A DNA stretch of 16,463 nucleotides from Deltaproteobacteria bacterium (GTDB taxonomy: Bacteria; Desulfobacterota; DSM-4660; Desulfatiglandales; HGW-15), in NCBI GenBank assembly GCA_019308985.1, contig JAFDHB010000078.1, positions 1 through 16,463 on the forward strand, written 5' to 3'. Shown piece after piece: positions 1,163 through 16,203 of this stretch. Position 1 is the stretch's first letter. Each line of letters starts with the position of its first letter. Made by a program: the position numbers and the translations under genes. The notes under the pieces are model-generated. The model did no database searches and was not told where the DNA came from. It saw only the letters and a list, made by a program, of their open reading frames with translations.

Positions 1163-2770
1163 CTAGATCCTCTTTTCCATCACGGCCCTCGCCGCCTCCA
1201 GGATCCCTTGAGGGAACCCTACCACATTGTATATGACCAGGAATCCGAGGACCCAGACCACGACAAGGGACAGGACCCAGAGGATGAATCCATATTTCAG
1301 GAAATCCATGGGATGGATCATCTTTTCCCCCGTGTCCGGGTAGACTCCCAGCCCGTAAACAATGGCGTTATTGGGTGTCCCCACTATCAGGAAGTGGGCA
1401 AAGGATGTGGCGAAGGCAACGGCCAGGCCTACGGCCCAAGGTTCCCCTTCCACCCCGGTCATTATGCCCATGGGGATGACGATGGGCCCCAGCAGGGCGG
1501 TGGTGCCCGCGTCAGACATGAAGTTGGTCATCAGGCCGGACAGGCCGGAGAGCCCTATCCAGAGGCCGAGACCCTGGCTCATCCCCACGAACCCGAGGAT
1601 TTTCAGGAAGGTCTGTGCCAGCCACAGGGCGGCCCCACTCTCCTTCAGGAGAGCACCGAGCGTCAATGCCCCGCAATACATGAACCAGGCATCCCAGGAA
1701 ATGCCTGCCAGGATCTTTCTCCACTCAGTGGTCCTGAATAGGACAGGGATGAGAAGCGCCAGGAGGGAAGGACCTCCCAGTCCGAGTTCCTCTCCCCCCG
1801 CAATCCAAAGCAGGAGGATGAGCAGGAGCATTCCGAAGGTGATGTATTCCGGGTAGGTCATCTTGCCCATCCTGGCGGTCTCTTCCTTTATGGCAACGAG
1901 ACCCGGGGTCAAGTCCTTTGTCTTGATCTTTCTGCCGAAAAGGGCCAGCATGTAAACGGCTACAATGATCCCGAGGACGGGAACCATGGGCATCCCGTAT
2001 TTCATCCATGTGAAGAAATCCATGGGGACATCGTATTCGCTCCAAAACCCCATCATAATCACGTTACGGCCACCTGCCGCGGGCGATCCAACCCCACCCA
2101 CGTTGAGGGCATAGCAAAGGGTGAACAGCAAGAATTTCGCCAGGGCCGGATCATGCTCCACCCTCCCTCCTCTGCTGTTTGCGGAGACGGCGCCGAAATA
2201 GACCGCCGCCATCACCGGGGTCATGAACGCACACATGGCATGGGCTGAGATGAATGACCCCACTACGGCCATGCTTACGGACAAGACGAAGACCGGGACC
2301 AAAAAGCCCCTGGTCCACCCCAACAGCCAACTGGCAAGCCGTTTGTGGAGTCCCACGTCCACTACCGCCACCCCCATGGCCAGCACGCCCAACAGGAACA
2401 TGGGGGCGTCACCCGCGAAGGTCTTACCGATCATCCCACGGGGAAGCAGGTGAAGGAAATATGCCAGAATGGGCATCAGTATCCCTGTAAGGCCGATCGG
2501 GATGGCCTCGGTGGCGAAAAAGATGACGGCCATGGGTATGATTCCTAACACGATCATTGTCTTGCGGGCCGCCTCGGCGGTAGTGTGGGCCACGCCCCAG
2601 TCGTTCATTTTTTCAGCAAAGCCGTATTTTTCCACCACCTCGACTACGGAGTCCGGTATGGGTAGGATAAAGCCTATCAAGACAAAAACAGCTACACCCG
2701 CACTCAGCCATAGCGTTCTATCGGACAACACGCTGCCTCCACCCGTATGGTGTTCCATCTCATGGTCCAT
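1163..2770 (-). CDS. SLC13/DASS-family anion (dicarboxylate/sulfate-type) transporter
   Basis: This 535-aa inner-membrane protein has a short hydrophilic N-terminus and many hydrophobic segments; the first is at about residues 21-39. Family landmarks are the repeat-1 re-entrant segment FISAHAMCAFMTPV (173-186), NVGGVGSPAAGGRNVIMMGF (223-242), LTNFMSDAGTTALLGPI (repeat 2, 413-430 region) and the signature IVGTPNNAIVYGLG (462-475). DASS proteins import di- or tricarboxylates or sulfate, usually with Na+. The Ser-Asn-Thr triplets that build the Na+/substrate sites in the family appear here as SAH and SDA, so cation and substrate cannot be assumed. Ribosome binding site AAGGAGGG lies about 10 nt before the ATG. 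It lies 98 bp beyond the terminator of the signalling operon, on the same strand, so it probably has its own promoter. Confidence 0.85.
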   Translation of the reverse strand: MDHEMEHHTGGGSVLSDRTLWLSAGVAVFVLIGFILPIPDSVVEVVEKYGFAEKMNDWGVAHTTAEAARKTMIVLGIIPMAVIFFATEAIPIGLTGILMPILAYFLHLLPRGMIGKTFAGDAPMFLLGVLAMGVAVVDVGLHKRLASWLLGWTRGFLVPVFVLSVSMAVVGSFISAHAMCAFMTPVMAAVYFGAVSANSRGGRVEHDPALAKFLLFTLCYALNVGGVGSPAAGGRNVIMMGFWSEYDVPMDFFTWMKYGMPMVPVLGIIVAVYMLALFGRKIKTKDLTPGLVAIKEETARMGKMTYPEYITFGMLLLILLLWIAGGEELGLGGPSLLALLIPVLFRTTEWRKILAGISWDAWFMYCGALTLGALLKESGAALWLAQTFLKILGFVGMSQGLGLWIGLSGLSGLMTNFMSDAGTTALLGPIVIPMGIMTGVEGEPWAVGLAVAFATSFAHFLIVGTPNNAIVYGLGVYPDTGEKMIHPMDFLKYGFILWVLSLVVVWVLGFLVIYNVVGFPQGILEAARAVMEKRI

Positions 2771-3003: not shown

Positions 3004-3447
3004 TTATTCCTCCTTCAAAACAGAGCGGGGCGAAGATATGATCTGCTTCACTTTTGCCTCTCGGATTCGCTCTTCCTGCTCGGCCTTTCTCTCGTAAGCC
3101 CTCTCGATCTTGGAGACAAGCTCCTCGGTGCTGCAGGGTTTCATGAGATAATCATAGGCGCCAAGCTTCATCCCTTCGATGGCCGTCTCCACGGTCCCAT
3201 GGCCCGTAAGCATAATTACCTCGGTGAGCGGCTTTATCCTCTTGATCTCACGCAAAGTAGCCACTCCATCCATGCCTGGCATGAGAACATCCAGGATGAC
3301 AACGTCAAAGTTGTAGTGCTCGATCTTCTCCACGGCTTCCTCTCCGCTGAGCACGGTTGTCACATCATATCCGCGAATGGTCAAGCGTTCGGACAGGGTA
3401 TCGAGAAATTCCTTCTCGTCATCCACAAGCAGTACACGGATTCTCAT
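3004..3447 (-). CDS. Single-domain response regulator (receiver) with a charged C-terminal helix
   Basis: This is a 147-aa CheY-like receiver. The acidic pair is D9-D10, the phosphorylation site D53 (VVILDVLMPG), the switch Thr T81 (MLTGHG) and the conserved Lys K103 (YLMKP). There is no DNA-binding or enzymatic output domain. After the receiver a highly charged segment of about 30 residues (ERKAEQEERIREAKVKQ) is likely a helix or coiled coil for partner contact. The ATG has AGGAGG about 8 nt upstream. It is the last gene of the minus-strand cluster, 37 bp after the kinase-like gene, and is followed by a terminator. It probably accepts or carries phosphate within the local relay. The receiver assignment is certain; its partner is inferred. 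Confidence 0.92.
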   Translation of the reverse strand: MRIRVLLVDDEKEFLDTLSERLTIRGYDVTTVLSGEEAVEKIEHYNFDVVILDVLMPGMDGVATLREIKRIKPLTEVIMLTGHGTVETAIEGMKLGAYDYLMKPCSTEELVSKIERAYERKAEQEERIREAKVKQIISSPRSVLKEE

Positions 3448-3484
3448 ATTCGGGCCTCCTTGGAAATCCCCTCAACCGGCTGGA

Positions 3485-4150
3485 TCAGGGGAGGTTTTCT
3501 TTAGGGACGATGATCACAAGCTCTTCTGCCCCCGTGTCAGTCTTTAAATCGGCACCCAGCGCGGTGAGTATGGCCTTTTCCCCCTTGCCTGGAAAGCCCT
3601 TGGAAAGAATTTCTCCCAGGGCTTGAAGCCGACTCATCTTGAGCTGCGCGCCTTGCTGTGTCTCCTCGGCCGTGAGCCCGATCCGCTTGCCATCTCCCGC
3701 TGCGTCCATGGCGAAGCGGACACAAAGCCAAACAAGGTTTTTCAGAAGAAAAGGGTTTGTCTTGATCACTACAGGGCGCGGAGGAGGCAAGAATTCCAGC
3801 CCTATGCCCCGCATAGAGGCTGATCTGCGGCTGAGAGCGACCATGAGCTTCAGGGTTGCGCCCAGGTCCACCTGCTTCACCTGCTCGTCGACGCTGTGGG
3901 CAAGCAGATTCAAGTCCTTGACAATCCCATCCGCCCTGTGTATCTGCGCAGTGATCTTCTCGGCCAGGGACTTAAAGCGTTCACCTTCCAGCGGCCGTCC
4001 TCGCTCCGCCATCTCACAAAAGTCCTTCAGGAGGCCTGCGGATTCGTTGACAATCGCCAATGCGTTCTTGAGTTCATGGGAGATGGAGGCGGTCGCCTGC
4101 CCGAAAAATTTCAAGCCTTCATGACAAAGGATGTCCCACTTATGTTCCAA
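3485..4150 (-). CDS. Histidine-kinase-like protein with HisKA box but degenerate ATPase domain (possible phosphotransfer protein)
   Basis: This 221-aa cytoplasmic protein has no membrane segment. The dimerisation/phosphoacceptor helix is intact: ASISHELKNALAIVNES, with His25 and the ExxN arrangement. The second half aligns by eye with the ATP-binding domain of the full kinase at 4501-6249. However, the N-box Asn pair is replaced by Arg145-Phe146 (VRFAMDAA), there is no DxGxG box, and the GTGLG lid is absent, with only FPGKGEK left. It should therefore be unable to use ATP but could still carry or remove phosphate, as Spo0B and ChpT do. The start is TTG, with GGAGG 5 nt upstream lying inside the last codons of the preceding receiver gene, which stops 1 nt before. 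Translation is probably coupled. The helix after the His matches the neighbouring kinase closely (NESAGLLKDF against NEKAGLLKDL), suggesting duplication and decay of that kinase. Confidence 0.8.
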   Translation of the reverse strand: MEHKWDILCHEGLKFFGQATASISHELKNALAIVNESAGLLKDFCEMAERGRPLEGERFKSLAEKITAQIHRADGIVKDLNLLAHSVDEQVKQVDLGATLKLMVALSRRSASMRGIGLEFLPPPRPVVIKTNPFLLKNLVWLCVRFAMDAAGDGKRIGLTAEETQQGAQLKMSRLQALGEILSKGFPGKGEKAILTALGADLKTDTGAEELVIIVPKENLP

Positions 4151-4151
4151 T

Positions 4152-4520
4152 TCAACCTCCTTGCTCTTCCAGGACCTGCTTCATTTTTTGGATCAGGACC
4201 TGGATATCCACCGGTTTTACGAGGTAATACTTGGCTCCTGCCTCCGCCGAGCCCATTCTGTAATCGTTTTCAGAGCCGTGGCCGGTCATGAAGATGAACT
4301 TCATCTTGGGAAATTTTTTCTTCAACATCTTTTCAAGCTCGATCCCGCTAATCTTGGGCATCTTCACGTCTATGACCGCCACATCGTAGGTCCCGCGTTC
4401 AGCCATTCGCAGGGCCTCCTCTCCGCTCACGGCCCAATCTGCACCTATCCCTCGAAGAGAGAGACGTTCCGCCAGGGTGGAGACCAGCTCCTTCTCATCA
4501 TCAACTAGGAGTACTTGCAT
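4152..4520 (-). CDS. Single-domain response regulator (receiver)
   Basis: This 122-aa receiver has all key residues: D7-D8, phospho-accepting D51 (VAVIDVKMP), T79 (FMTGHG) and K102 (LVKPVD). There is no output domain and almost no tail. The ATG overlaps the end of the kinase gene by 20 bp, with AAGGA just upstream inside that gene. The stop sits 1 nt before the start of the degenerate kinase-like gene. It is thus sandwiched between a working kinase and a putative phosphotransfer protein, the position expected for an intermediate of a phosphorelay. The receiver assignment is certain; the relay role is inferred from position. Confidence 0.92.
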   Translation of the reverse strand: MQVLLVDDEKELVSTLAERLSLRGIGADWAVSGEEALRMAERGTYDVAVIDVKMPKISGIELEKMLKKKFPKMKFIFMTGHGSENDYRMGSAEAGAKYYLVKPVDIQVLIQKMKQVLEEQGG

Positions 4521-6249
4521 GGTTTTCCTTCTGTTTTTCTTTCATCCGACGGGGTAAGGTAACGGTAAAGGTTGTTCCTTTTCCAACTTGACTCTCTACG
4601 CTGATCTTCCCCCCGATCTCCTGCACGAGACCGTAGGTGATGGAAAGGCCGAGGCCCGTGCCTCCACGCTTGGTCCTCGTTGAGAAAAATGGCTCGAAGA
4701 TGTGCTTGAGGTCTTGCTCCGGAATGCCGCACCCGTCATCAGCAACAGTAACTGAAACGAATCCGTCCCGCAGAGGGCTCACCTTCACATCCAAGTGCCC
4801 GCCGTCGCTCATGGCCGTGAAAGCGTTGTTGAACAGGTTGAGGAAGATCTCTTGGAGTTTGCCTCGGTCGCTCTTGATCTCAGGTAGATCCGGGGATACC
4901 TCTACCGAGACATGAATGGACCTGTATTCCGCCTCCTTCATCAAGAAGCCCAGTACCTCATGGATGAGTTGCCCCAGATTGACGCTTTCAATGCTTACCT
5001 CCATGTGCCGCGCAAAGCTGAGCAGTCGCTTGGTGATCCTGGCGCATCGGTCAACGGCCTGGAGAATCGAGTCCACCAGCCCCATCAATTTTTCCTCTTT
5101 GCCCTGTCCCTTTTCAAGCTCAAGGAGGTCTTTCAGCAGTCCGGCCTTTTCATTTATGATGGCGAGGGGGTTGTTGATCTCATGGGCCACTCCGGCCGCC
5201 AATCGCCCGATTGAGGCCATCTTGCTGGCGTACTCGACCTCGTGCAAGGCCATGAGTCGCCTCTGGTCCGCCAGATAGATCCTGTTTACCAAATAAGTGG
5301 TTCCGCCCAGGATCAGGACCAGGATGGCGAATATGCTGGCGCCTAGGAACCAGGTAAGCTGCATCCGGGTCTTCTCCCAAGGCTTCATCAGATCTTTTTT
5401 TTGCTTGATCACCATGAGGATGAAAGGCGAATTCGGAATGTAACGGTACCCCACGATAAGGGGGACCCCTCTTGGATCCGTCGTTTCGTACACGCGGGTT
5501 TTAGGGGAGTACTCTGGCACTAGCAGGGAAAGCCTTTCCAGTACCCCGCCATGGTAAAGAGAAGGGGTCTGAAGTATGCCCTCCCGGTTTATGAGAAAGG
5601 CATCACCCTTGCCCGCCATTTCCAGGCCGGAGAGCAATTCATTGAACTTTTCCGTATCCAGGGTCGCCCTGACCACGTAGAAGAGCCCGCTCGGCAGTTT
5701 TCTCTTAACGGAAATGACCAGGTGAGGAATACCCCGGTATCCCAAAAACACCTCGCTGACGTAAATACCCCTGGCTAATACCTCTTTATACCACTCCTGG
5801 TCGCTGTAGTTTCTATCCTCGAGATCATAGGGCCCAGCGTAGGATCTCTGATTGCCCATGGGGTCTATGACTCCGAGGTCAAGGAAACCCCCGAAGGCCT
5901 TCTTGAGGTTTTCCAGGATTGAGGCGAGCCTCGCATGGTCATTCAGCTCCTCAAAGGGATTCTCATGGGCGACGAAGCTGAGTGCAGCTCTCCGCTCCTC
6001 AAGAAAATAGGTGATCGTTCGGCGGGTATTAGAGACGAGCCTGGCTGTGCGGAAAAGGATCTCCGACTCCGTGGCCTCCTTCGACAACCTGTAATCCACG
6101 AGGCCCATAAAAAGCAGAGGGGCAAGGACTACAATCGTGGTGAGGAGGACCGTCATCACCCATATACGGCGGAAGTTGAAAAGGTGCCTGCCCGTCCCCA
6201 CTTCGGGGTGATGCCAAAACCGTGGTTTCAGGTGTTCTATAACTGACAT
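4501..6249 (-). CDS. Membrane sensor histidine kinase with Cache-like periplasmic domain
   Basis: Domains of this 582-aa protein in order: cytoplasmic N-terminus (1-30); TM1 (about 31-53); a periplasmic region of about 245 residues with dCache-like features (GVIDPMGNQRSYAGPYDL, NYSDQEWY, GDAFLINREGILQTPS); TM2 (about 297-325); HisKA with His356 in AAGVAHEINNPLAII; and HATPase_c with N475 (LNLFNNA), the ADDGCGIP box (503-510), EPFFSTR and GGTGLGLSI (529-537). All catalytic motifs are intact, so this is the one competent kinase of the cluster. Cache domains bind small extracellular ligands such as organic acids; the ligand here is unknown. The upstream gap is 48 bp and no good ribosome binding site precedes the ATG, so expression may depend on read-through from the receiver gene before it. 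There is no HAMP domain between TM2 and HisKA. Confidence 0.93.
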   Translation of the reverse strand: MSVIEHLKPRFWHHPEVGTGRHLFNFRRIWVMTVLLTTIVVLAPLLFMGLVDYRLSKEATESEILFRTARLVSNTRRTITYFLEERRAALSFVAHENPFEELNDHARLASILENLKKAFGGFLDLGVIDPMGNQRSYAGPYDLEDRNYSDQEWYKEVLARGIYVSEVFLGYRGIPHLVISVKRKLPSGLFYVVRATLDTEKFNELLSGLEMAGKGDAFLINREGILQTPSLYHGGVLERLSLLVPEYSPKTRVYETTDPRGVPLIVGYRYIPNSPFILMVIKQKKDLMKPWEKTRMQLTWFLGASIFAILVLILGGTTYLVNRIYLADQRRLMALHEVEYASKMASIGRLAAGVAHEINNPLAIINEKAGLLKDLLELEKGQGKEEKLMGLVDSILQAVDRCARITKRLLSFARHMEVSIESVNLGQLIHEVLGFLMKEAEYRSIHVSVEVSPDLPEIKSDRGKLQEIFLNLFNNAFTAMSDGGHLDVKVSPLRDGFVSVTVADDGCGIPEQDLKHIFEPFFSTRTKRGGTGLGLSITYGLVQEIGGKISVESQVGKGTTFTVTLPRRMKEKQKENHASTPS

Positions 6250-6297
6250 AAGCGGATGTATGCAGGGAAATAGACTCCGGGGCCTAGGCTTACCCTG

Positions 6298-6753
6298 CTA
6301 TTCTTCCTCTTCGCGGTCCAGGATTTCTCTTGCCGTTTCAAACTCCCCCGCTTCTGCAAAGGCCGCCGCTGCCATGGGGCCTTCCACTTTGCTCCTGTAA
6401 GCCCGCTTGATGGTATTGACAAGTTTTTCGATATCCACCGGCTTTTGCAGATATTCAAAGGCCCCCAGCCGACGGGCCTCCTTCTCGTCCTTTTCCGTGC
6501 CGTGACCTGTGAGGATGATGACCTGCACACTGGGATAGGCCTCCCTCACTCGGCGCAGTACCTCTATACCATCTATACCCGGCATCCTCAAGTCCAAGAC
6601 CATCACATCGGGGACCTGATCGTTTACGATTTTGAGGGCCTGCTCCCCGTTCAGGGCTACGTCTGAGCCGAGATCCCGCATCTGAATCCGCTCGGACAGC
6701 GCCTTGACGAACTCCTCTTCGTCGTCTACCAGTAGGACCTTGATCTCTTTCAT
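6298..6753 (-). CDS. Response regulator (receiver) with a C-terminal FAEAGE tail
   Basis: I chose the ATG at 6753 (151 aa) over an in-frame GTG at 6783, because GGGGGA lies 10 nt before this ATG and the receiver fold begins at MKEIKVLLVDD. Key residues are D10-D11, phosphorylation site D54 (MVLDLRMPG), T82 (ILTGHGT) and K104 (LQKPVD). After the receiver a tail of about 30 residues carries MAAAAFAEAGEFETAREIL and ends in DREEEE. The same tail motif occurs in the next two upstream proteins. There is no DNA-binding domain. It lies 48 bp before the kinase gene. The receiver assignment is certain; the role of the tail is unknown and probably involves partner docking. Confidence 0.9.
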   Translation of the reverse strand: MKEIKVLLVDDEEEFVKALSERIQMRDLGSDVALNGEQALKIVNDQVPDVMVLDLRMPGIDGIEVLRRVREAYPSVQVIILTGHGTEKDEKEARRLGAFEYLQKPVDIEKLVNTIKRAYRSKVEGPMAAAAFAEAGEFETAREILDREEEE

Positions 6754-6810
6754 TGCTTTGCTTCCCCCTAAGTAATATTTCACTCTGACCGGACATTTCC
6801 TTCGAGTACC

Positions 6811-7362
6811 CTATGCGGGGTCAAGAACGGGTCTTTTTCTTGCTGCTTTCTCCTTCCTTTTTTTCCTGGGAGATGACCTCTTTTCGGCGATGAACTCCAT
6901 GGCGATCTCAGGTTCGCCCGCCTCAGCAAATGTCGTGGCCGCCATCATCTTTTGAAAGCGCCCGGGGAGTGATTCTCTTGCCTTTTCCTTCGCCCTCTTT
7001 TCTCTGCATGCCTCCCGGACCCGCAGAACCAGAGAATCCAGGTTAAGGGGTAAAAGGAAATCGTCAAAAGCACCAAGTTTCATTCCCTCTATGGAAAGGG
7101 AAAGATCTTCGGACCCGTTCAACAGGATGACCTCTGCAAGGGGCCGGATCTTTTTGATTCTTCTTAGAAGGTCCATGGCTTGTCGCCCCGGCCTCTTCAC
7201 ACCCAGCAGGACGACGTCCACATTGCGGCTTTCGAGGATCCTCTTTGCCTCGGCCTGTGTTTCCGCCTCCAAAATTTTGCAGTCCTGGAGCCGCAGACGT
7301 TCACGCAGACTCCGGCGTAAGAGAGGTTCCGTTTCGATAATCAGTAAAGTGGCATCCTCCAT
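6811..7362 (-). CDS. Pseudoreceiver protein with FAEAGE motif and basic tail
   Basis: This 183-aa protein keeps the length and hydrophobic pattern of a receiver but has lost every active-site residue. The acidic pair is Glu10-Thr11 (LLIIETEP), the phosphorylation site is Gly54 (VVLLGVKRPG), the switch Thr is Asn82 (ILLNGSED) and the conserved Lys is Leu104 (FLLPLN). It cannot be phosphorylated in the normal way. Residues from about 140 carry MMAATTFAEAGEPEIAMEF, followed by a very basic tail (SSPRKKRKEKAARKRP) that might contact nucleic acid or an acidic partner. The ATG has only a weak ribosome binding site and lies 26 bp after the small FAEAGE gene, so translation may be coupled. Likely an adaptor or scaffold; this is inference. 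Confidence 0.85.
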   Translation of the reverse strand: MEDATLLIIETEPLLRRSLRERLRLQDCKILEAETQAEAKRILESRNVDVVLLGVKRPGRQAMDLLRRIKKIRPLAEVILLNGSEDLSLSIEGMKLGAFDDFLLPLNLDSLVLRVREACREKRAKEKARESLPGRFQKMMAATTFAEAGEPEIAMEFIAEKRSSPRKKRKEKAARKRPVLDPA

Positions 7363-7388
7363 TCATCCGACCATATGATCATCCAGAC

Positions 7389-7577
7389 TCAGACCCTGGC
7401 CACCACATAAAAGACGCGGACGCCCTTTAGTCCCACCGCCTCCAAGAAACTATCGAGCCTTTCGGGCCTTCTGGAGAGCGCCTCCCCGGCCATGATGCTT
7501 GAGGCCGTGTCAAATTCCCCCGCTTCGGCAAAGCTGATCGCCACAAAGGCCTTTTGCAGCTTTTCAAACCACTTCAT
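7389..7577 (-). CDS. Small stand-alone FAEAGE-motif protein, 62 aa
   Basis: Start ATG with a near-perfect AGGAGG 5 nt upstream, and a strong sigma-54-type promoter just before it. The first half, MKWFEKLQKAFVAIS followed by FAEAGEFDTASSIM, matches the C-terminal tails of the two proteins encoded just downstream (FAEAGEPEIAMEF and FAEAGEFETAREIL). The second half (DSFLEAVGLKGVRVFYVVARV) is hydrophobic, predicted beta-rich and unique within the cluster. There is no signal peptide or membrane helix. It is the first gene of the putative sigma-54 transcript running to the terminator at 2869. The function is unknown. A free copy of a tail module could compete with, or bridge, the tailed receiver and the pseudoreceiver; this is speculation. 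Confidence 0.8.
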   Translation of the reverse strand: MKWFEKLQKAFVAISFAEAGEFDTASSIMAGEALSRRPERLDSFLEAVGLKGVRVFYVVARV

Positions 7578-7611
7578 GATCTCCTCCTTTACGCAGGTTA
7601 CCTTTTGTTAG

Positions 7612-7627
7612 AGCAAGACCCGTGCCG
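7612..7627 (-). promoter_or_regulatory. Sigma-54 (-24/-12) promoter of the phosphorelay operon
   Basis: On the minus strand the sequence reads CGGCACGGGTCTTGCT. It matches TGGCAC-N5-TTGCW at all but the first base, with the obligatory 10 bp between GG and GC. Transcription should start near 7601, leaving about 24 nt of leader that contains the AGGAGG site of the 62-aa gene. The gene for a sigma-54 activator lies about 0.9 kb upstream on the same strand. Confidence 0.75.
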
Positions 7628-7670
7628 AAAAATTTCAACTGCAATTCCAATTGGTTGCGGTGAGGCAATA

Positions 7671-7751
7671 ATGAAGGAAGCAAGTTGGGACGTATTGAGA
7701 CACATGCTTGTTTTATCTTGAAACATTATGAGCCATTTTTGCTTCCTTTAT
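7671..7751. promoter_or_regulatory. Inverted 13-bp repeat pair upstream of the sigma-54 promoter (candidate activator sites)
   Basis: ATGAAGGAAGCAA (7671-7683) and TTGCTTCCTTTAT (7739-7751) are inverted copies with one mismatch. They lie about 70-82 and 138-150 bp upstream of the predicted start at 7601, the usual range for enhancer sites of sigma-54 activators. The distal copy overlaps the 3' end of the receiver gene. Each copy is not itself a palindrome, which is unusual for a Fis-type dimer site. Confidence 0.4.
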
Positions 7752-8084
7752 CTTTTGAATCAGTTCGTCAACGTCCACCGGCTTCATCAGGTAGTCAAAG
7801 GCTCCTAGATGCATCCCCTCGATACCTTCTTTGCTGGTCCCCTTTCCCGTCAGGAGGATAACAGGCACCCTCGGTTCCTTCAGCTTCATTCTTTGAAGGA
7901 CCTCCAACCCTCCCAGTCCGGGCATGAGTACATCCAGTACCACTACGTCGGGCGGGTCCATCTCCAAAAGCCGAAGGCCCTCTTCCCCGTCAAGGGCGGT
8001 CTGTGCCTCAATTCCCCTCAACCTGAGTCTTTGGGCCAGGGTCAAGAGGAATTCTTCCTCGTCGTCTACCACCAGTACTTTCAA
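7713..8084 (-). CDS. Single-domain response regulator (receiver)
   Basis: This 123-aa receiver is complete: D7-D8, phosphorylation site D51 (VVVLDVLMPG), T79 (LLTGKGT) and K101 (YLMKPVD). The domain ends near the C-terminus (KMAHNVSR), with no output domain. The start is TTG, overlapping the stop of the Nitro_FeMo-Co gene by 4 bp (TTGA), with a GGAGG-like stretch upstream inside that gene, so the two are translationally coupled. It forms one unit with the FeMo-Co-domain gene and probably the activator gene, separate from the sigma-54-driven unit that starts 135 bp further on. The kinase at 4501-6249 is the nearest candidate phosphodonor. Confidence 0.92.
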   Translation of the reverse strand: MKVLVVDDEEEFLLTLAQRLRLRGIEAQTALDGEEGLRLLEMDPPDVVVLDVLMPGLGGLEVLQRMKLKEPRVPVILLTGKGTSKEGIEGMHLGAFDYLMKPVDVDELIQKIKEAKMAHNVSR

Positions 8085-8434
8085 GAGCCTCTTCCTCCCT
8101 CCTTATATAGGATTTCTCCTGCATGGAGTGACCCCTTGCAGAACCTCTCCAGGGCCGCTTCATAGGGACCAATCACTGAGTCCAGGACTTCCACCCGCTT
8201 CCATCTCAAATACTGGTAGTACTCTTCCTCAATTCCACCGCACATGACCACCTGGGCCTCCTCCGTCAAGATCAGGTGGCAGAGTTGTTCCGCAGAGGCC
8301 TGAGGGAGAACCACCGTCTTCTCATGGATCCTCTCTTTGTTTTCATCCAAAGAGACGATGAGCACCTCTGTTGCCAGGTCGAATCGGGGCGCCACATCGT
8401 TGCCATATAGGGGAATAAGGAGCTTTTTGCTCAT
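8081..8434 (-). CDS. Nitro_FeMo-Co (NifX/NafY/NifB C-terminal-like) domain protein
   Basis: This 117-aa protein shows the dinitrogenase iron-molybdenum cofactor domain pattern: LLIPLYGNDVAPRFDLATEVLIV at the start (beta strand, then the APRFD motif), a central VVMCGGIEEE with Cys65, and a closing IGPYEAALERFCKG with Cys98; Cys52 is a third cysteine. Family members bind or carry metal-sulfur clusters (FeMo-co precursors, or the Mo-Cu cluster of the orange protein), but many have no known cargo. No nif genes are in the window. It lies 70 bp after the sigma-54 activator gene and overlaps the next receiver gene by 4 bp, so a sensory or regulatory role is more likely than nitrogenase assembly. The ribosome binding site is weak. 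Confidence 0.8.
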   Translation of the reverse strand: MSKKLLIPLYGNDVAPRFDLATEVLIVSLDENKERIHEKTVVLPQASAEQLCHLILTEEAQVVMCGGIEEEYYQYLRWKRVEVLDSVIGPYEAALERFCKGSLHAGEILYKEGGRGS

Positions 8435-8504
8435 GTTTGACTAATCCTATTTCTCCAAGGCTCCGCCAAACTCATCCTGAGGCCGAGACAGGCACGCGGC
8501 CTTT

Positions 8505-9914
8505 TCAACCAATCCCGTGTTGCTTCATTTTTCTCCAGAGCGTGCTTCTCCCCCAGCCCAGCAGAGAAGCAGCCTTGTTGCGCCGACCCCTTGCCTTGAG
8601 CAGGGCATCCATGATCATCCTCTTCTCCATTGACGCCCACGTCTGTCCAGGGTCCTCTCCCACTCCTTGGCCCAGAGAAGAAACAAAAGGGCCTGAATCC
8701 ATTTCCTCACCGCTTGAAGGTGAGGTGGGGGAGGGTGCCGTCTCAGTCAAGTAGGCCGGGAGGTGCCTCGGGAGAATCACGGTGCCCTGGCAAATATTTA
8801 CTGCGTACTCGACCACATTCTTCAATTCCCGCACGTTACCAGGATAGGAGTAACCCGTGAGGAGCTCAAGAGACTTGCTGGAGAATCCCTTGATCTTTTT
8901 CCCAAATTGGGCTGCAAAGGCGTTCAAGAAATGGTCCAGGAGCAGTCGCACATCCTCTCCCCGCTCCCTCAACGGGGGCAGGTGGACCCGGACCACATTG
9001 AGTCTGAAAAGGAGATCTTCCCTGAACTTTCCCTCTTTAACCATCCTCTCCAGGTCGCGATTCGTGGCTGCAATCACCCTGACATTGGCCCGGAAACCTC
9101 TTGTGCTGCCGAGTGGATATACGATCTTATCATCCAAAAAGGTGAGCAGTTTCACCTGGAGTGCCAAAGGCAGGTCACCAATCTCCGTGAGATAAAGGGT
9201 ACCGTTGTGAGCCATCCGAAATCGTCCAGGCCTACTTTCGGTCGCCCCGGTAAATGCCCCTTTCTGGTGTCCAAAGAGCTCAGACTCCAACAGGGTCTCG
9301 GGCAATGCCCCGCAATTGACCTTTACAAAGGGCCCCTTGGCCCTATCAGAAGAGCGATGTATCTCTTCCGCTACCAGGTCCTTGCCGGTGCCCGTTTCTC
9401 CGGTAATAAGAACCGAGGAGTCGCTCTGGGCGAGAAGGGGGAGGAGATGAAAGATCTTCTCCATCTTGGGGCTTCTACCGATGATTTGGCCGAAGCTGTA
9501 AGCTTGGCCTTTCTTTTGGACCAATTCTTTGAGTGGTCGCAAGTCTTCCACGCTTTCCACGAAGCCGGTGACTACTCCATCTGGATCTCGCAAGGCCGCC
9601 ACGGTGATTCGGATCGGAATAAGTTGGCGTTCCCGATTGATCATGTCGCTCTCCACACACCGGGAGTCGTATTCATCCCCCAATCCGCGCACAGGGCATC
9701 CTTGAATACAGGCCCTGATACGCAGGATGTGAGAACAGGGAGAACCTGTGGCCTCATCGCAGGAAAAACCCGTGAGTGCCTCCATAGCACGATTGAGAAA
9801 CACGATTCTTTGCTTCAAGTCCAGGACGACTATGCCAAACGGGAGCTCGTCAAGAAGCCCGTCCAAGACAAAGGAGATGGAAAAAGGTTCTTTTGTCTCA
9901 GGCAAAACGCCCAT
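8505..9914 (-). CDS. Sigma-54-dependent transcriptional activator, PAS-AAA+-Fis
   Basis: Domains of this 469-aa protein: PAS (about 20-130, GIVVLDLKQRIVFLNRAM) with a cysteine group at C52, C60, C69, C73 and C86; AAA+ (about 142-375) with Walker A GETGTGKD (172-179), the sigma-54 contact loop GAFTGA (219-224), and FREDLLFRLN with PPLRERGED; then a loose Ser/Pro/Gly linker and a Fis-type helix-turn-helix (about 428-469, RRNKAASLLGWGRSTLWRKM). There is no receiver domain, so it is not a phosphorylation target in the usual sense. Walker B reads TLYLTEIGD: the Asp of the usual LFLDEIGD is Thr243, while Glu244 is kept. ATP hydrolysis may be altered. It is upstream of, and co-directional with, the signalling genes, and probably acts at the -24/-12 promoter at 7612-7627. 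The cysteines suggest a redox, metal or cluster signal. Confidence 0.92.
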   Translation of the reverse strand: MGVLPETKEPFSISFVLDGLLDELPFGIVVLDLKQRIVFLNRAMEALTGFSCDEATGSPCSHILRIRACIQGCPVRGLGDEYDSRCVESDMINRERQLIPIRITVAALRDPDGVVTGFVESVEDLRPLKELVQKKGQAYSFGQIIGRSPKMEKIFHLLPLLAQSDSSVLITGETGTGKDLVAEEIHRSSDRAKGPFVKVNCGALPETLLESELFGHQKGAFTGATESRPGRFRMAHNGTLYLTEIGDLPLALQVKLLTFLDDKIVYPLGSTRGFRANVRVIAATNRDLERMVKEGKFREDLLFRLNVVRVHLPPLRERGEDVRLLLDHFLNAFAAQFGKKIKGFSSKSLELLTGYSYPGNVRELKNVVEYAVNICQGTVILPRHLPAYLTETAPSPTSPSSGEEMDSGPFVSSLGQGVGEDPGQTWASMEKRMIMDALLKARGRRNKAASLLGWGRSTLWRKMKQHGIG

Positions 9915-14356: not shown

Positions 14357-14981
14357 TGCGGAAAAGAGTTACGCAGGGACTTCAATGAAGGACAGAGCAA
14401 AGGGGCTTAATGTGAGCATAGCTTCTGTCTATTATCATTTCAAAAACAAAGAACACATACTTTTCAACATAATCGAGTCAGCCGGCAATGACTTCTTGAT
14501 CGCTGTAAGGAAGGCTCAAGAGGCCTCGGATGACCCTCTGGAACAGTTGCAGGGTATGTTGATTTCCCTTGTCCTCCTGACAAAAGAGAAAAGAAACAGG
14601 GTTAAGGTATACGTGGAGGAGCAACATAATCTTTCGAAAAGGCTTTTGAACGTCATATATAAACAGCATCGAGAGATATATGATTGTTATGCAGAGCAAT
14701 CGAGAAGGGTCCATAGGGCGTATGGGAATTCCGTTGAGTCGGTTTCTGTCACCACCTTCGCTATCTTTGGTATGATGAACTGGTCCTACCGTTGGTACAA
14801 AGAAGAGGGGAAGCTGACCATCCAAGAGGTAGCTAAGAGACTCGCAAATATGCTATTCTATGGCATCCTAAGTAAGGATAAACGGCTGGCGTCTCCCCGA
14901 AAAGGCATCGGTCAGGGATATCGTAAGGGCTGTCGGCGTTTCCAACTCCACGGTCTACATCTATTTCAAGAACAAGGATGA
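14349..14981 (+). pseudogene. TetR-family regulator, unit 1: 5' end lost to a repeat, 3' end frameshifted
   Basis: TetR similarity begins upstream of the first ATG (14385): GLFAEKSYAGTSMKDRAKGL, then VSIASVYYHFKNKEHIL, the recognition helix. The first helix, which should precede LFAEK, is missing and replaced by repeat sequence with a stop at 14313-14315. No start codon exists in frame before 14385, so a protein from 14385 (198 aa) would have a damaged DNA-binding domain. The ligand domain runs to LANMLFYGIL (ending near 14870). The remaining residues (RLASPRKGIGQGYRKG) are out-of-frame reading of the HTH of unit 2. The frame should change near TCTCCCCGAAAAGG (14892-14905). The original was probably a double TetR regulator of fatty acid or acyl-CoA genes. 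Confidence 0.75.
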
Positions 14982-15462
14982 AATCCTCCACGAAATTATC
15001 GATCATATAGGCTCGATCCTTTTGAAAGAGCTTCGCTCGGCGATAGACAGGCAAAACGATCCTGTCAACTGTCTCGGAGAAATGATCTTCAGGCAGGTAT
15101 GCCTCATGAAAGAGAAACCGAAGGAAATAAAGATCTACCTTGAGGAGCAATACCAGCTACCCCCAAGGTTAAGGCGAAGGGCCCTAAAGCAGCACCGCCA
15201 GATCTTTGATGTCTATTACGACAAGGTTTGTGAACTGAAAGAACAGGGCCTGCTCCGCAAGCTGGACAGTACGGTCGCAACGTCCGGAATCTTTGCCATG
15301 ATGAACTGGGCCTATCGCTGGTTCAGAGACGGGGGCAGGCTTTCTATTGAAGATGTCGCCAGGGAGATCATATCCCTCTTTTTTCCCGGCATTTTCAAGC
15401 AAGGCGTCCTACCTGATGGAGGCAAGTTGGTGTTGGACGAATACATCCCCAGAAATAAGTAG
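14872..15462 (+). pseudogene. TetR-family regulator, unit 2, without its own start
   Basis: This frame follows a TAA at 14869-14871 and reads PEKASVRDIVRAVGVSNSTV, then YIYFKNKDEIL, a TetR helix-turn-helix, followed by a full ligand domain ending FFPGIFKQGV. It matches unit 1 along its length (KEIKIYLEEQYQLPPRLRRR against NRVKVYVEEQHNLSKRLLNV; IFAMMNWAYRWF against IFGMMNWSYRWY), so the two are tandem paralogous units. There is no ATG, GTG or TTG before TTG 15022, which lies after the HTH, and no first helix. It can only be made with DNA binding if unit 1 shifts +1 near 14895-14903, giving a fusion of about 358 aa. It is most likely a frameshifted or deletion-fused remnant. Confidence 0.75.
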
Positions 15463-15501: not shown

Positions 15502-15680
15502 ATGGAGAAGAAACAACTAGTCAAGGAAGTCGTTGAAAACATCGCAATCCTTAAGATCAACCGCCCCGACCAGGCAAATGCCTTGAATCGCGATCTTTTT
15601 TTGGGACTCAAGGCGGAACTGGATAATCTTGGGCGGGACCCTGGAATCAGGGTCGTGATCATCACCGGGGAAGGGGAGAA
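15502..15680 (+). pseudogene. Enoyl-CoA hydratase/isomerase, N-terminal fragment only
   Basis: From ATG 15502 the reading is the first strand-helix part of a crotonase: VENIAILKINRPDQANALN, then LRDL-type helix and IRVVIITGEGE, the point just before the oxyanion-hole AGaDl motif. Similarity stops there, at about 15678. The frame then runs on without meaning to a stop at 15786. About 200 residues, including all catalytic parts, are missing. The start has only a weak ribosome binding site. The sequence continues directly into a CoA-transferase in another frame, so a deletion joined two genes of what was probably an acyl-CoA degradation operon controlled by the TetR genes upstream. Confidence 0.8.
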
Positions 15681-16203
15681 GGAAGACTCTGTGGTGGTTT
15701 GCCAAACTATAACCGCTATGAAACGAAAGACGGGAAGTATATCGCCGTTGGTTCTCTTGAAACCAAGTTCAGGAACGCTCTCCTGAAGAAGCTGGGCAGG
15801 GAGGATCTCATCGCCGATAGAGGAGGGATCACCTCATCGGATGTAGATGAAACTGCCGGTGAAGTGCACTCTTTCTTCCGGAAGACTTTTCTGACCAAGA
15901 CCAGGGACCAATGGATGGAAGAGTTGGCGGATTGAACATCTGCGTAAGCCCGGCGAATACGCTCGAAGAGGCCTTGTCCCATCCCCAGACCCTGTTTCGA
16001 AAGATGGCTTGAGGGTCAAACACCCTTCAGCAGGAGATATCAAACAGATCGGCTCCCCTTTGAAATTTTCAGACATCTCTTTCGACGCAAACCGGATTCC
16101 GGCCCCGCGTCTTGGAGAGCACACGAGAGAGATATTGAGATCTCTGGGATATGGGGACAAGGAGATAGATGATTTGATAGCAAGGAACATCGTGAAGGAA
16201 TGA
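15681..16203 (+). pseudogene. CaiB/BaiF (family III) CoA-transferase or racemase, 3' part with two frameshifts
   Basis: Three consecutive frames give the C-terminal part of one family III CoA-transferase (possibly AMACR-like). 15681-15932 reads RLCGGLPNYNRYETKDGKYI, then AVGSLETKF and on to DQWMEELAD. 15935-16009 reads NICVSPANTLEEALSHP, then QTLFRKMA. 16009-16203 reads LRVKHPSAGDIKQIGSPLKF and ends in APRLGEHTREILRSLGYGDK. Single-base changes near 15933 and 16009 would restore one frame. The N-terminal half, including the catalytic Asp region, is missing. The family moves CoA between carboxylic acids or epimerises 2-methylacyl-CoA. This copy cannot be functional. Confidence 0.82.

Follow-up and report, generated by a model that had tools for sequence, protein, structure and literature searches.

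How could four response-regulator receivers, none of them joined to an output domain, work together with a single intact sensor kinase and a kinase-like protein that has lost its ATP site, and what might they control? The question is raised by the 16,463-nt contig JAFDHB010000078.1 (assembly GCA_019308985.1, Deltaproteobacteria bacterium), the whole of which was analysed and is called the window below; its host is probably a sulfate reducer. Ten genes run head to tail on its minus strand, in the order S54, NFC, RR_D, pep, pRR, RR_C, HK, RR_B, HPt and RR_A (Table 1): a sigma-54 activator and its Nitro_FeMo-Co partner, four receivers (RR_A to RR_D), a free tail peptide, a pseudoreceiver, the kinase and the kinase-like HPt. 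We propose, at a probability that we put at roughly 55%, that they exert two-layer control, by sigma-54-dependent transcription and by a phosphorelay, over an anion transporter that is probably a sulfate importer; the proposal is drawn from sequence. A sequence-only reading of this DNA had described a branched phosphorelay under a sigma-54 activator at 3004-9914, and we found every component it named in place; its extent is right for the genes that it listed and leaves out the adjoining DASS transporter gene, which represents the most recurrent kind of neighbour.

The protein on which the relay would turn is HPt. Among domain families (called throughout by Pfam at its cut-offs unless said otherwise) it matches HisKA only; it keeps H25-E-x-x-N29 and, in alignment, lacks the N-box Asn, the G1 Asp and the entire ATP lid/G2 stretch, which bears out the earlier description of a kinase-like protein without ATP-binding motifs. 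It belongs to a large family of ATP-dead HisKA proteins: HisKA is present in 32/32 members and HATPase_c in 0/32, the H, E and N of HExxN are invariant across 32 aligned rows, and the relatives are labelled histidine kinase or hypothetical protein where sources name them at all. A structure prediction, made for the monomer, confidently returned the DHp-CA core of a kinase. RetS/GacS and DivL are among the fold matches listed; neither ChpT nor Spo0B appears among the 50 entries of either list of matches, which does not exclude them. None of the 32 HPt proteins from the gene set that we call module S below matched PF10090 (HPTransfase, ChpT) at E <= 0.1, and one member of a second form, HPt2, reached E = 0.0079 and 16.4 bits against this model, below its cut-off of 22.9. 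Because the PF10090 cut-off was not reached, we do not file HPt as a ChpT family member. It has the make-up of the degenerate-kinase phosphotransferases of the ChpT/Spo0B/PhyT kind, namely a HisKA-like hairpin bearing the His and a C-terminal kinase-fold domain devoid of ATP motifs, and a relay role like theirs is likely from its sequence.

To see in what company HPt occurs, we scanned its alignment against genome contigs, which located 324 places with relatives; the best 80 of the 324 were kept as loci, and their titles include Deltaproteobacteria, Desulfobacterales and Thermodesulfobacteriota. The order receiver-HK-receiver-HPt-receiver recurs around HPt, and HK-receiver-HPt-receiver is complete in 43 of the 60 loci whose contig covers it. 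Of the 45 loci with at least 6.5 kb of upstream sequence, 36 have a SulP permease gene there on the same strand and 37 a receiver of cytidylate-kinase-fusion type (four fusions were checked by Pfam); TetR is present in 30/80 loci. We call TetR-SulP-receiver-HK-receiver-HPt-receiver module S. An anion transporter (SulP, DASS, DASS2 or TauE) is encoded in 59/80 loci, and none was found in the stretch available for the other 21; many contigs end early. Since 11 of these genomes carry only about 1-5 SulP genes apiece, the adjacency of relay and SulP is poorly explained by chance. Conservation of the gene set, on which the sequence-only reading had made its own proposal depend, is borne out by its recurrence in related genomes.

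Two further features of the loci deserve mention. In the SulP-linked L002:3039-4265, L003:5085-6314, L012:6496-7818 and L036:6417-7697 the first receiver continues into a cytidylate-kinase-like domain (PF13189). By eye, the P-loop of this domain appears degenerate and the stretch after it BON-like; the domain is perhaps a second dead enzyme of the system. A gene of one and the same cluster follows the relay in six loci (L003, L005, L010, L021, L037 and L064); where it was scanned (L010) it encodes a beta carbonic anhydrase, a hint that some of these systems may serve an anion other than sulfate.

The remaining genes of the window belong to a second module. Of 291 genomes of one class, 24 encode pRR (E <= 1e-42) and 201 encode HPt (E <= 1e-25). 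Every genome with pRR also has HPt (P ~9e-5 under independence), but in most of the 24 the pRR cluster itself contains HPt2. In an earlier search of 16 genomes at E <= 1e-10, ordinary receivers matched in all 16 and only 3 genomes reached E <= 1e-42. Up to 20 kb fetched around pRR in 20 of the 24 genomes gave a usual order S54-NFC-HK2-RR_D-HPt2-pep-pRR-RR_C-(RR_A)-CBS-DASS, here module D, with S54 and NFC in 18 of the 20 stretches, HK2 in 16, HPt2 in 14 and a DASS-type transporter in 16 (one on the opposite strand). HPt and HPt2 are distinct forms, each usually beside its own kinase; in a tree HPt2 is a separate clade (13 sequences, support 1.0), and the split between HK and HK2 has a support of 0.64, the HK2 set (19 sequences from 15 loci) including some other kinases. 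The HPt and HK of the window lie nearest those of the SulP-type module. Two other loci, L123 and L125, carry module D without HPt2 followed by the HK-RR_B-HPt-RR_A of module S; the window is the same fusion, also lacks HK2, and keeps the S relay together with the DASS transporter. Two recurring and separable modules, S and D, are thus combined in the window as a mosaic, where one unit had been read. Module D also occurs pared down: L137 and L138 hold only pRR-CBS-DASS, and in five genomes with short loci an HPt relay is found elsewhere, with TetR and SulP beside it in three. As a test of the link to sulfate we tried dsrA and rejected it; comparison of the lists placed it in 24/24 pRR genomes, and its presence in 255/291 genomes of the class means that it hardly discriminates.

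RR_A, RR_B, RR_C and RR_D each carry the complete D-D/D/T/K active site (DDDTK) and match only Response_reg above the Pfam cut-off, making them single-domain response regulators; the earlier count of four complete receivers and one dead one, and the remark that none is joined to an output domain, both hold for the window. Relatives with the full site are the rule (RR_B 56/57, RR_A 68/70, RR_D 15/15, RR_C of module S 51/53 and of module D 15/15), and the five receivers whose site is incomplete are short pieces of 48-108 residues. The pRR protein retains the receiver fold and lacks the active-site set, which makes it a pseudoreceiver. Among 19 of its relatives the Lys is found in none, an acid at the second acidic position in one and the Asp at the phosphorylation position in six; pRR is probably not phosphorylatable and would serve as a fixed-state competitor or a scaffold. 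It has a FAEAGE tail in common with pep and RR_C, and 41 of the 43 occurrences of this motif in the reading frames of 101 stretches (the 80 loci, the 20 fetched stretches and the window, with L072 and L125 a single place entered under two names) belong to these three families. Relatives of pep itself appear as a separate match of at least 49 residues beside the pRR gene in 10 of the 13 genomes searched, the other matches in that search being the tails of pRR and RR_C. Several pep relatives are about 100 residues long, with more than one match.

A sigma-54 promoter-like site lies before pep in the window. The score and its cut-off were fixed after this site had been seen and before the relatives were scanned. 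Counting the window, L046 and the 20 fetched stretches as 22 module-D loci (the pRR genomes G011, G033 and G231 lie outside this count), we found a site preceding pep or pRR by no more than 350 bp in 17, the window included; the same loci have one at 5/229 other gene starts, and before none of the S54, RR_D, HPt, RR_C, CBS and DASS genes. Across the 80 HPt loci a site precedes RR_A in 3/103 cases, S54 in 1/12 and pRR in 3/3. In the window alone the pattern has 10 matches where 7.2 are expected, which is not significant, so the site is convincing only because its position recurs across relatives. Above it stand boxes resembling ATGNTTCAT, first read by eye from the same sequences, so that their count is post hoc: counted over 16 of the 17 site-bearing loci there are 30, against a shuffle mean of 2.5 and a maximum of 9 in 500 shuffles, with boxes in 12/16 loci, two boxes 10 bp apart in 7/16 and none in 4/16. 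Exact inverted repeats were also considered as activator sites and rejected, being AT-rich repeats common to 2-3 loci. S54 combines an AAA+ sigma-54 domain and a helix-turn-helix with a promoter-like -24/-12 site nearby, as a sigma-54 activator and its promoter do, and the earlier placing of the system under this activator agrees with the presence, within the S54 locus, of the site belonging to the downstream genes. From the position of the site and the boxes above it, S54 most likely drives pep-pRR-RR_C and the genes that follow. Metal or redox sensing by the S54/NFC pair is possible: the S54 PAS cysteines C60, C69 and C73 (C-x8-C-x3-C) and the NFC residues C52 and C65 are each kept in 22/22 aligned relatives. 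No sequence relative of a solved structure was found for NFC.

The second layer would require that several proteins dock on one another, and the residues at the docking positions are consistent with this. The HK and HPt of the window both carry NAIE-x-L, as is mostly the case elsewhere; over 61 loci HK and HPt agree at 4.5 of 6 positions, compared with 1.6 for seven other kinases, a small control set. In module D, just 5/19 sequences labelled HK2 yielded the docking motif. The four window receivers share E-[FL]-[TA]-R at their docking positions and pRR does not; this pattern is matched at 3.5 of 4 positions by core receivers (205 proteins) and at 0 of 4 by 21 other receivers, a control set that is likewise small and, having been picked for low similarity, biased. 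RR_A relatives in module S have D at the first position more often than E. These patterns fit one docking surface that serves several receivers, as expected for a single relay with branches.

Taken together, the following course of events can be proposed. S54 with its partner NFC would bind the boxes about 100 bp upstream and fire the promoter at 7612-7628, yielding a transcript of pep, pRR, RR_C, HK, RR_B, HPt, RR_A and possibly DASS, as the conservation of these elements suggests. HK would autophosphorylate and then phosphorylate a single-domain receiver, most likely RR_B because its gene overlaps HK and precedes HPt; HPt would take the phosphate on His25 and pass it to a second receiver, most likely RR_A, with RR_C and RR_D as further ports on the same docking surface. 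The end point, the weakest step, is probably a protein contact, because no receiver has an output domain; the partner may be the transporter, a CBS-type protein or a complex of the tails of pRR, pep and RR_C. Since the relay occurs with either TetR or S54 and its recurring neighbour is an anion transporter, an effect on transport at the protein level is likelier than DNA binding by the receivers. One specific form of this end point, which we offer as decidedly tentative, is non-transcriptional: phosphorylated receivers, the dead receiver and the tail peptide, which share a FAEAGE docking tail, might bind and gate either the respiratory anion (sulfate) transporter or the CBS protein that partners it. 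Uptake of the terminal electron acceptor would then be tuned within seconds, with the sigma-54 circuit setting the amount of the whole set.

Several observations weigh against two-layer control of a sulfate importer. The DASS protein of the window scores 145.6 bits against NCBIfam TIGR00785, below the cut-off of 198.6; its gene is separated from RR_A by 233 bp, and co-transcription is only possible; the DASS and SulP families carry other anions too. Agreement between HK and HPt at the docking positions is equal within a locus (4.54) and across loci (4.55), so there is no sign of locus-specific pairing, only of a shared surface. A piece of the core is missing in 17 of the 60 loci, nine having no receiver found between HK and HPt, five none after HPt and three no HK just before HPt; gene order consequently does not fix the wiring, and we rejected it as proof of the order of transfer. 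Five of the 22 module-D loci have no sigma-54 site above the cut-off, and the minimal loci L140 and L141 consist of S54-NFC-pRR-(CBS)-DASS without a local relay, so S54 need not act downstream of one. Those minimal loci, together with the nine that have HK before HPt and no receiver found between, would also suit an arrangement with no relay at all, in which the receivers get their phosphate straight from HK, those to spare act as phosphate sinks, and the transporter is controlled by S54/NFC alone. We consider such an arrangement improbable, given how widely HPt occurs in the class, its presence in every pRR genome (with the reservation about HPt2 made above) and the existence of HPt2 as a separate form that usually has a kinase of its own next to it, as HPt does.

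Other roles for HPt itself have to be weighed as well. It could be a phosphatase that drains the receivers, HK writing and HPt erasing with no onward transfer; HExxN, fully kept in the 32 rows, is a motif also linked to phosphatase activity, and several receivers to one kinase would suit a drain. Degenerate kinases can indeed be phosphatases, as some clostridial phosphotransfer-like proteins turned out to be (PMC11210211), and PhyP/PhyT was itself once proposed as one, but has been shown to be a transferase (PMC5898713). We regard a phosphatase as unlikely: the Glu beside the His is invariant in the 32 rows, in proteins that should no longer carry out any ATP reaction, and a separate phosphatase could be redundant given that HK retains HEINN. 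HPt might alternatively be a pseudokinase that pairs with HK through a near-identical DHp helix and tunes it without carrying phosphate. The DHp helices of the two are nearly identical around the His, and RetS/GacS and DivL, present in the fold lists, offer examples of non-kinase or atypical DHp-CA proteins whose action is on a partner; yet a pure scaffold would need neither the His kept in 32/32 members nor the receiver-docking residues found in most of the 73 scored, and the odds of this role seem to us long.

A different picture has been published for gene clusters of this kind. PMC11887813 (2025), the only paper on such clusters that our literature search found, reports that in Desulfobacteraceae, and in many sulfate reducers, DASS and SulP genes cluster with those of two-component systems, and treats this as regulation of sulfate uptake; sulfate is proposed as the signal, sensed by a cache-domain kinase that would phosphorylate WalR-type regulators binding the transporter promoters. 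The likeness is close, since the loci here also place a DASS- or SulP-type anion transporter beside a cache-domain kinase, with several response regulators, CBS proteins and, in the SulP cluster, TetR, and the published view draws support from the conserved cache domain and from the abundance of the transporters in proteomes (PMC11887813). For it to apply here, the regulators should join a receiver to a DNA-binding domain, a combination absent from the window receivers and from five scanned receivers of L036 and L122. None of the three receiver proteins of L036 (a Desulfonema magnum SulP locus, with RR_C fused to Cytidylate_kin2), the four of the window and the three scanned in L122 carries a DNA-binding domain; the WalR-type view is weakened for these loci, and we hold it to be very improbable for them. 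The sequence-only reading knew of no described system with exactly this set. That needs amending in view of the published DASS/SulP two-component clusters, and stands in so far as the passages of PMC11887813 consulted name no phosphotransferase, relay, dead receiver, sigma-54 activator or promoter for them; the words phosphorelay, cytidylate and receiver are absent from its main text, and phosphotransfer occurs only in the title of a reference. A transporter survey (PMC5840216) does not mention response regulators, histidine kinases or two-component systems.

Sulfate respiration begins with the uptake of sulfate, which costs energy; for the way in which sulfate reducers control this uptake, our search turned up only a proposal (PMC11887813). 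The loci described here suggest control of uptake through an unrecognised phosphorelay whose key protein, HPt, is carried by 201 of 291 genomes of one class; if true, the view that the regulators in such clusters are themselves DNA-binding would need correction. Loci with both kinases, with one kinase and with no local relay also offer a natural series for studying how relays are assembled and lost.

The coordinates of the system and of its neighbouring transporter are collected in Table 1. Elsewhere in the window, adjacent TetR-type frames lie at 14385-14981 and 15022-15462, both with TetR_C_24, a helix-turn-helix not being detected in the second; they are perhaps a tandem duplicate. At 15502-15935 the start of a short enoyl-CoA hydratase frame overlaps a CoA-transferase piece, both far below family length, which may be deletion remnants or an assembly join. 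Two inverted repeats (10503-10590/16265-16352, 88 nt, 82%; 10280-10327/14307-14354, 48 nt, 83%) perhaps belong to a dispersed repeat element. Rfam and tRNA scans gave no matches, and sigma-70 promoters and terminators were no commoner than in shuffles.

Table 1. Genes and candidate control sites of the system in the window, with the adjoining transporter gene.
Feature	Position	Strand	Basis
S54, PAS / sigma-54 AAA+ / HTH_8 transcription activator without receiver	8505-9914	-	Pfam (AAA+ and lid models too)
NFC, Nitro_FeMo-Co domain protein, frequent partner of S54	8081-8434	-	Pfam
RR_D, single-domain receiver, complete active site; TTG start overlaps NFC stop	7713-8084	-	Open reading frame, Pfam, active-site check
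Upstream box ATGGCTCAT, ~108 bp above the sigma-54 promoter, inside the 3' end of RR_D; putative activator site	7728-7736	-	Motif first read from the same sequences, count partly circular
Upstream box ATGTTTCAA, ~98 bp above the promoter; putative activator site	7718-7726	-	Same partly circular count
Sigma-54 promoter-like site TCGGCACGGGTCTTGCT with GG-N10-GC spacing, 36 bp ahead of pep	7612-7628	-	Same place in 17/22 module-D loci
pep, free 62-aa tail peptide with FAEAGE motif	7389-7577	-	Relatives and motif
pRR, 183-aa pseudoreceiver with FAEAGE tail; active site E-T/G/N/L	6811-7362	-	Pfam, active-site check
RR_C, single-domain receiver with FAEAGE tail	6298-6783	-	Pfam, active-site check
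HK, 582-aa membrane sensor kinase, dCache_1 - HisKA - HATPase_c, module-S type	4501-6249	-	Pfam; tree places it nearest module-S kinases
RR_B, single-domain receiver, overlaps the HK gene	4152-4520	-	Open reading frame, Pfam, active-site check
HPt, 221-aa ATP-dead HisKA protein, His25; TTG start behind AGGAGG	3485-4150	-	Pfam, alignment, fold prediction
RR_A, single-domain receiver	3004-3447	-	Open reading frame, Pfam, active-site check
DASS/SLC13-type anion transporter (Na_sulph_symp/CitMHS), 233 bp downstream of RR_A	1163-2770	-	Pfam

Relays built from separate parts of this kind are known in other bacteria. In Bacillus, Spo0F-Spo0B passes phosphate from a single-domain receiver to a degenerate-kinase phosphotransferase, as would the relay proposed here; it differs in ending on Spo0A, which has a DNA-binding domain, and in having no link to a transporter. 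ChpT of Caulobacter resembles HPt in joining a HisKA-like hairpin to a C-terminal Bergerat-fold domain incapable of ATP binding, and its His shuttles phosphate; it differs in its place downstream of the hybrid kinase CckA, with CtrA as the end point (PMC3433190), and the module-S HPt proteins do not match its domain PF10090. The closest working precedent, judged by analogy, is the Pak-SdrG-PhyT-PhyR relay of Sphingomonas, in which the components are separate proteins and a single-domain receiver feeds the degenerate kinase PhyT, shown to transfer phosphate (PMC5898713). PhyT differs from HPt in being membrane-anchored and in carrying the HRxxN motif of HWE/HisKA_2 kinases, and the Sphingomonas relay ends on the receiver PhyR, whose action runs through the sigma factor EcfG (PMC5898713).

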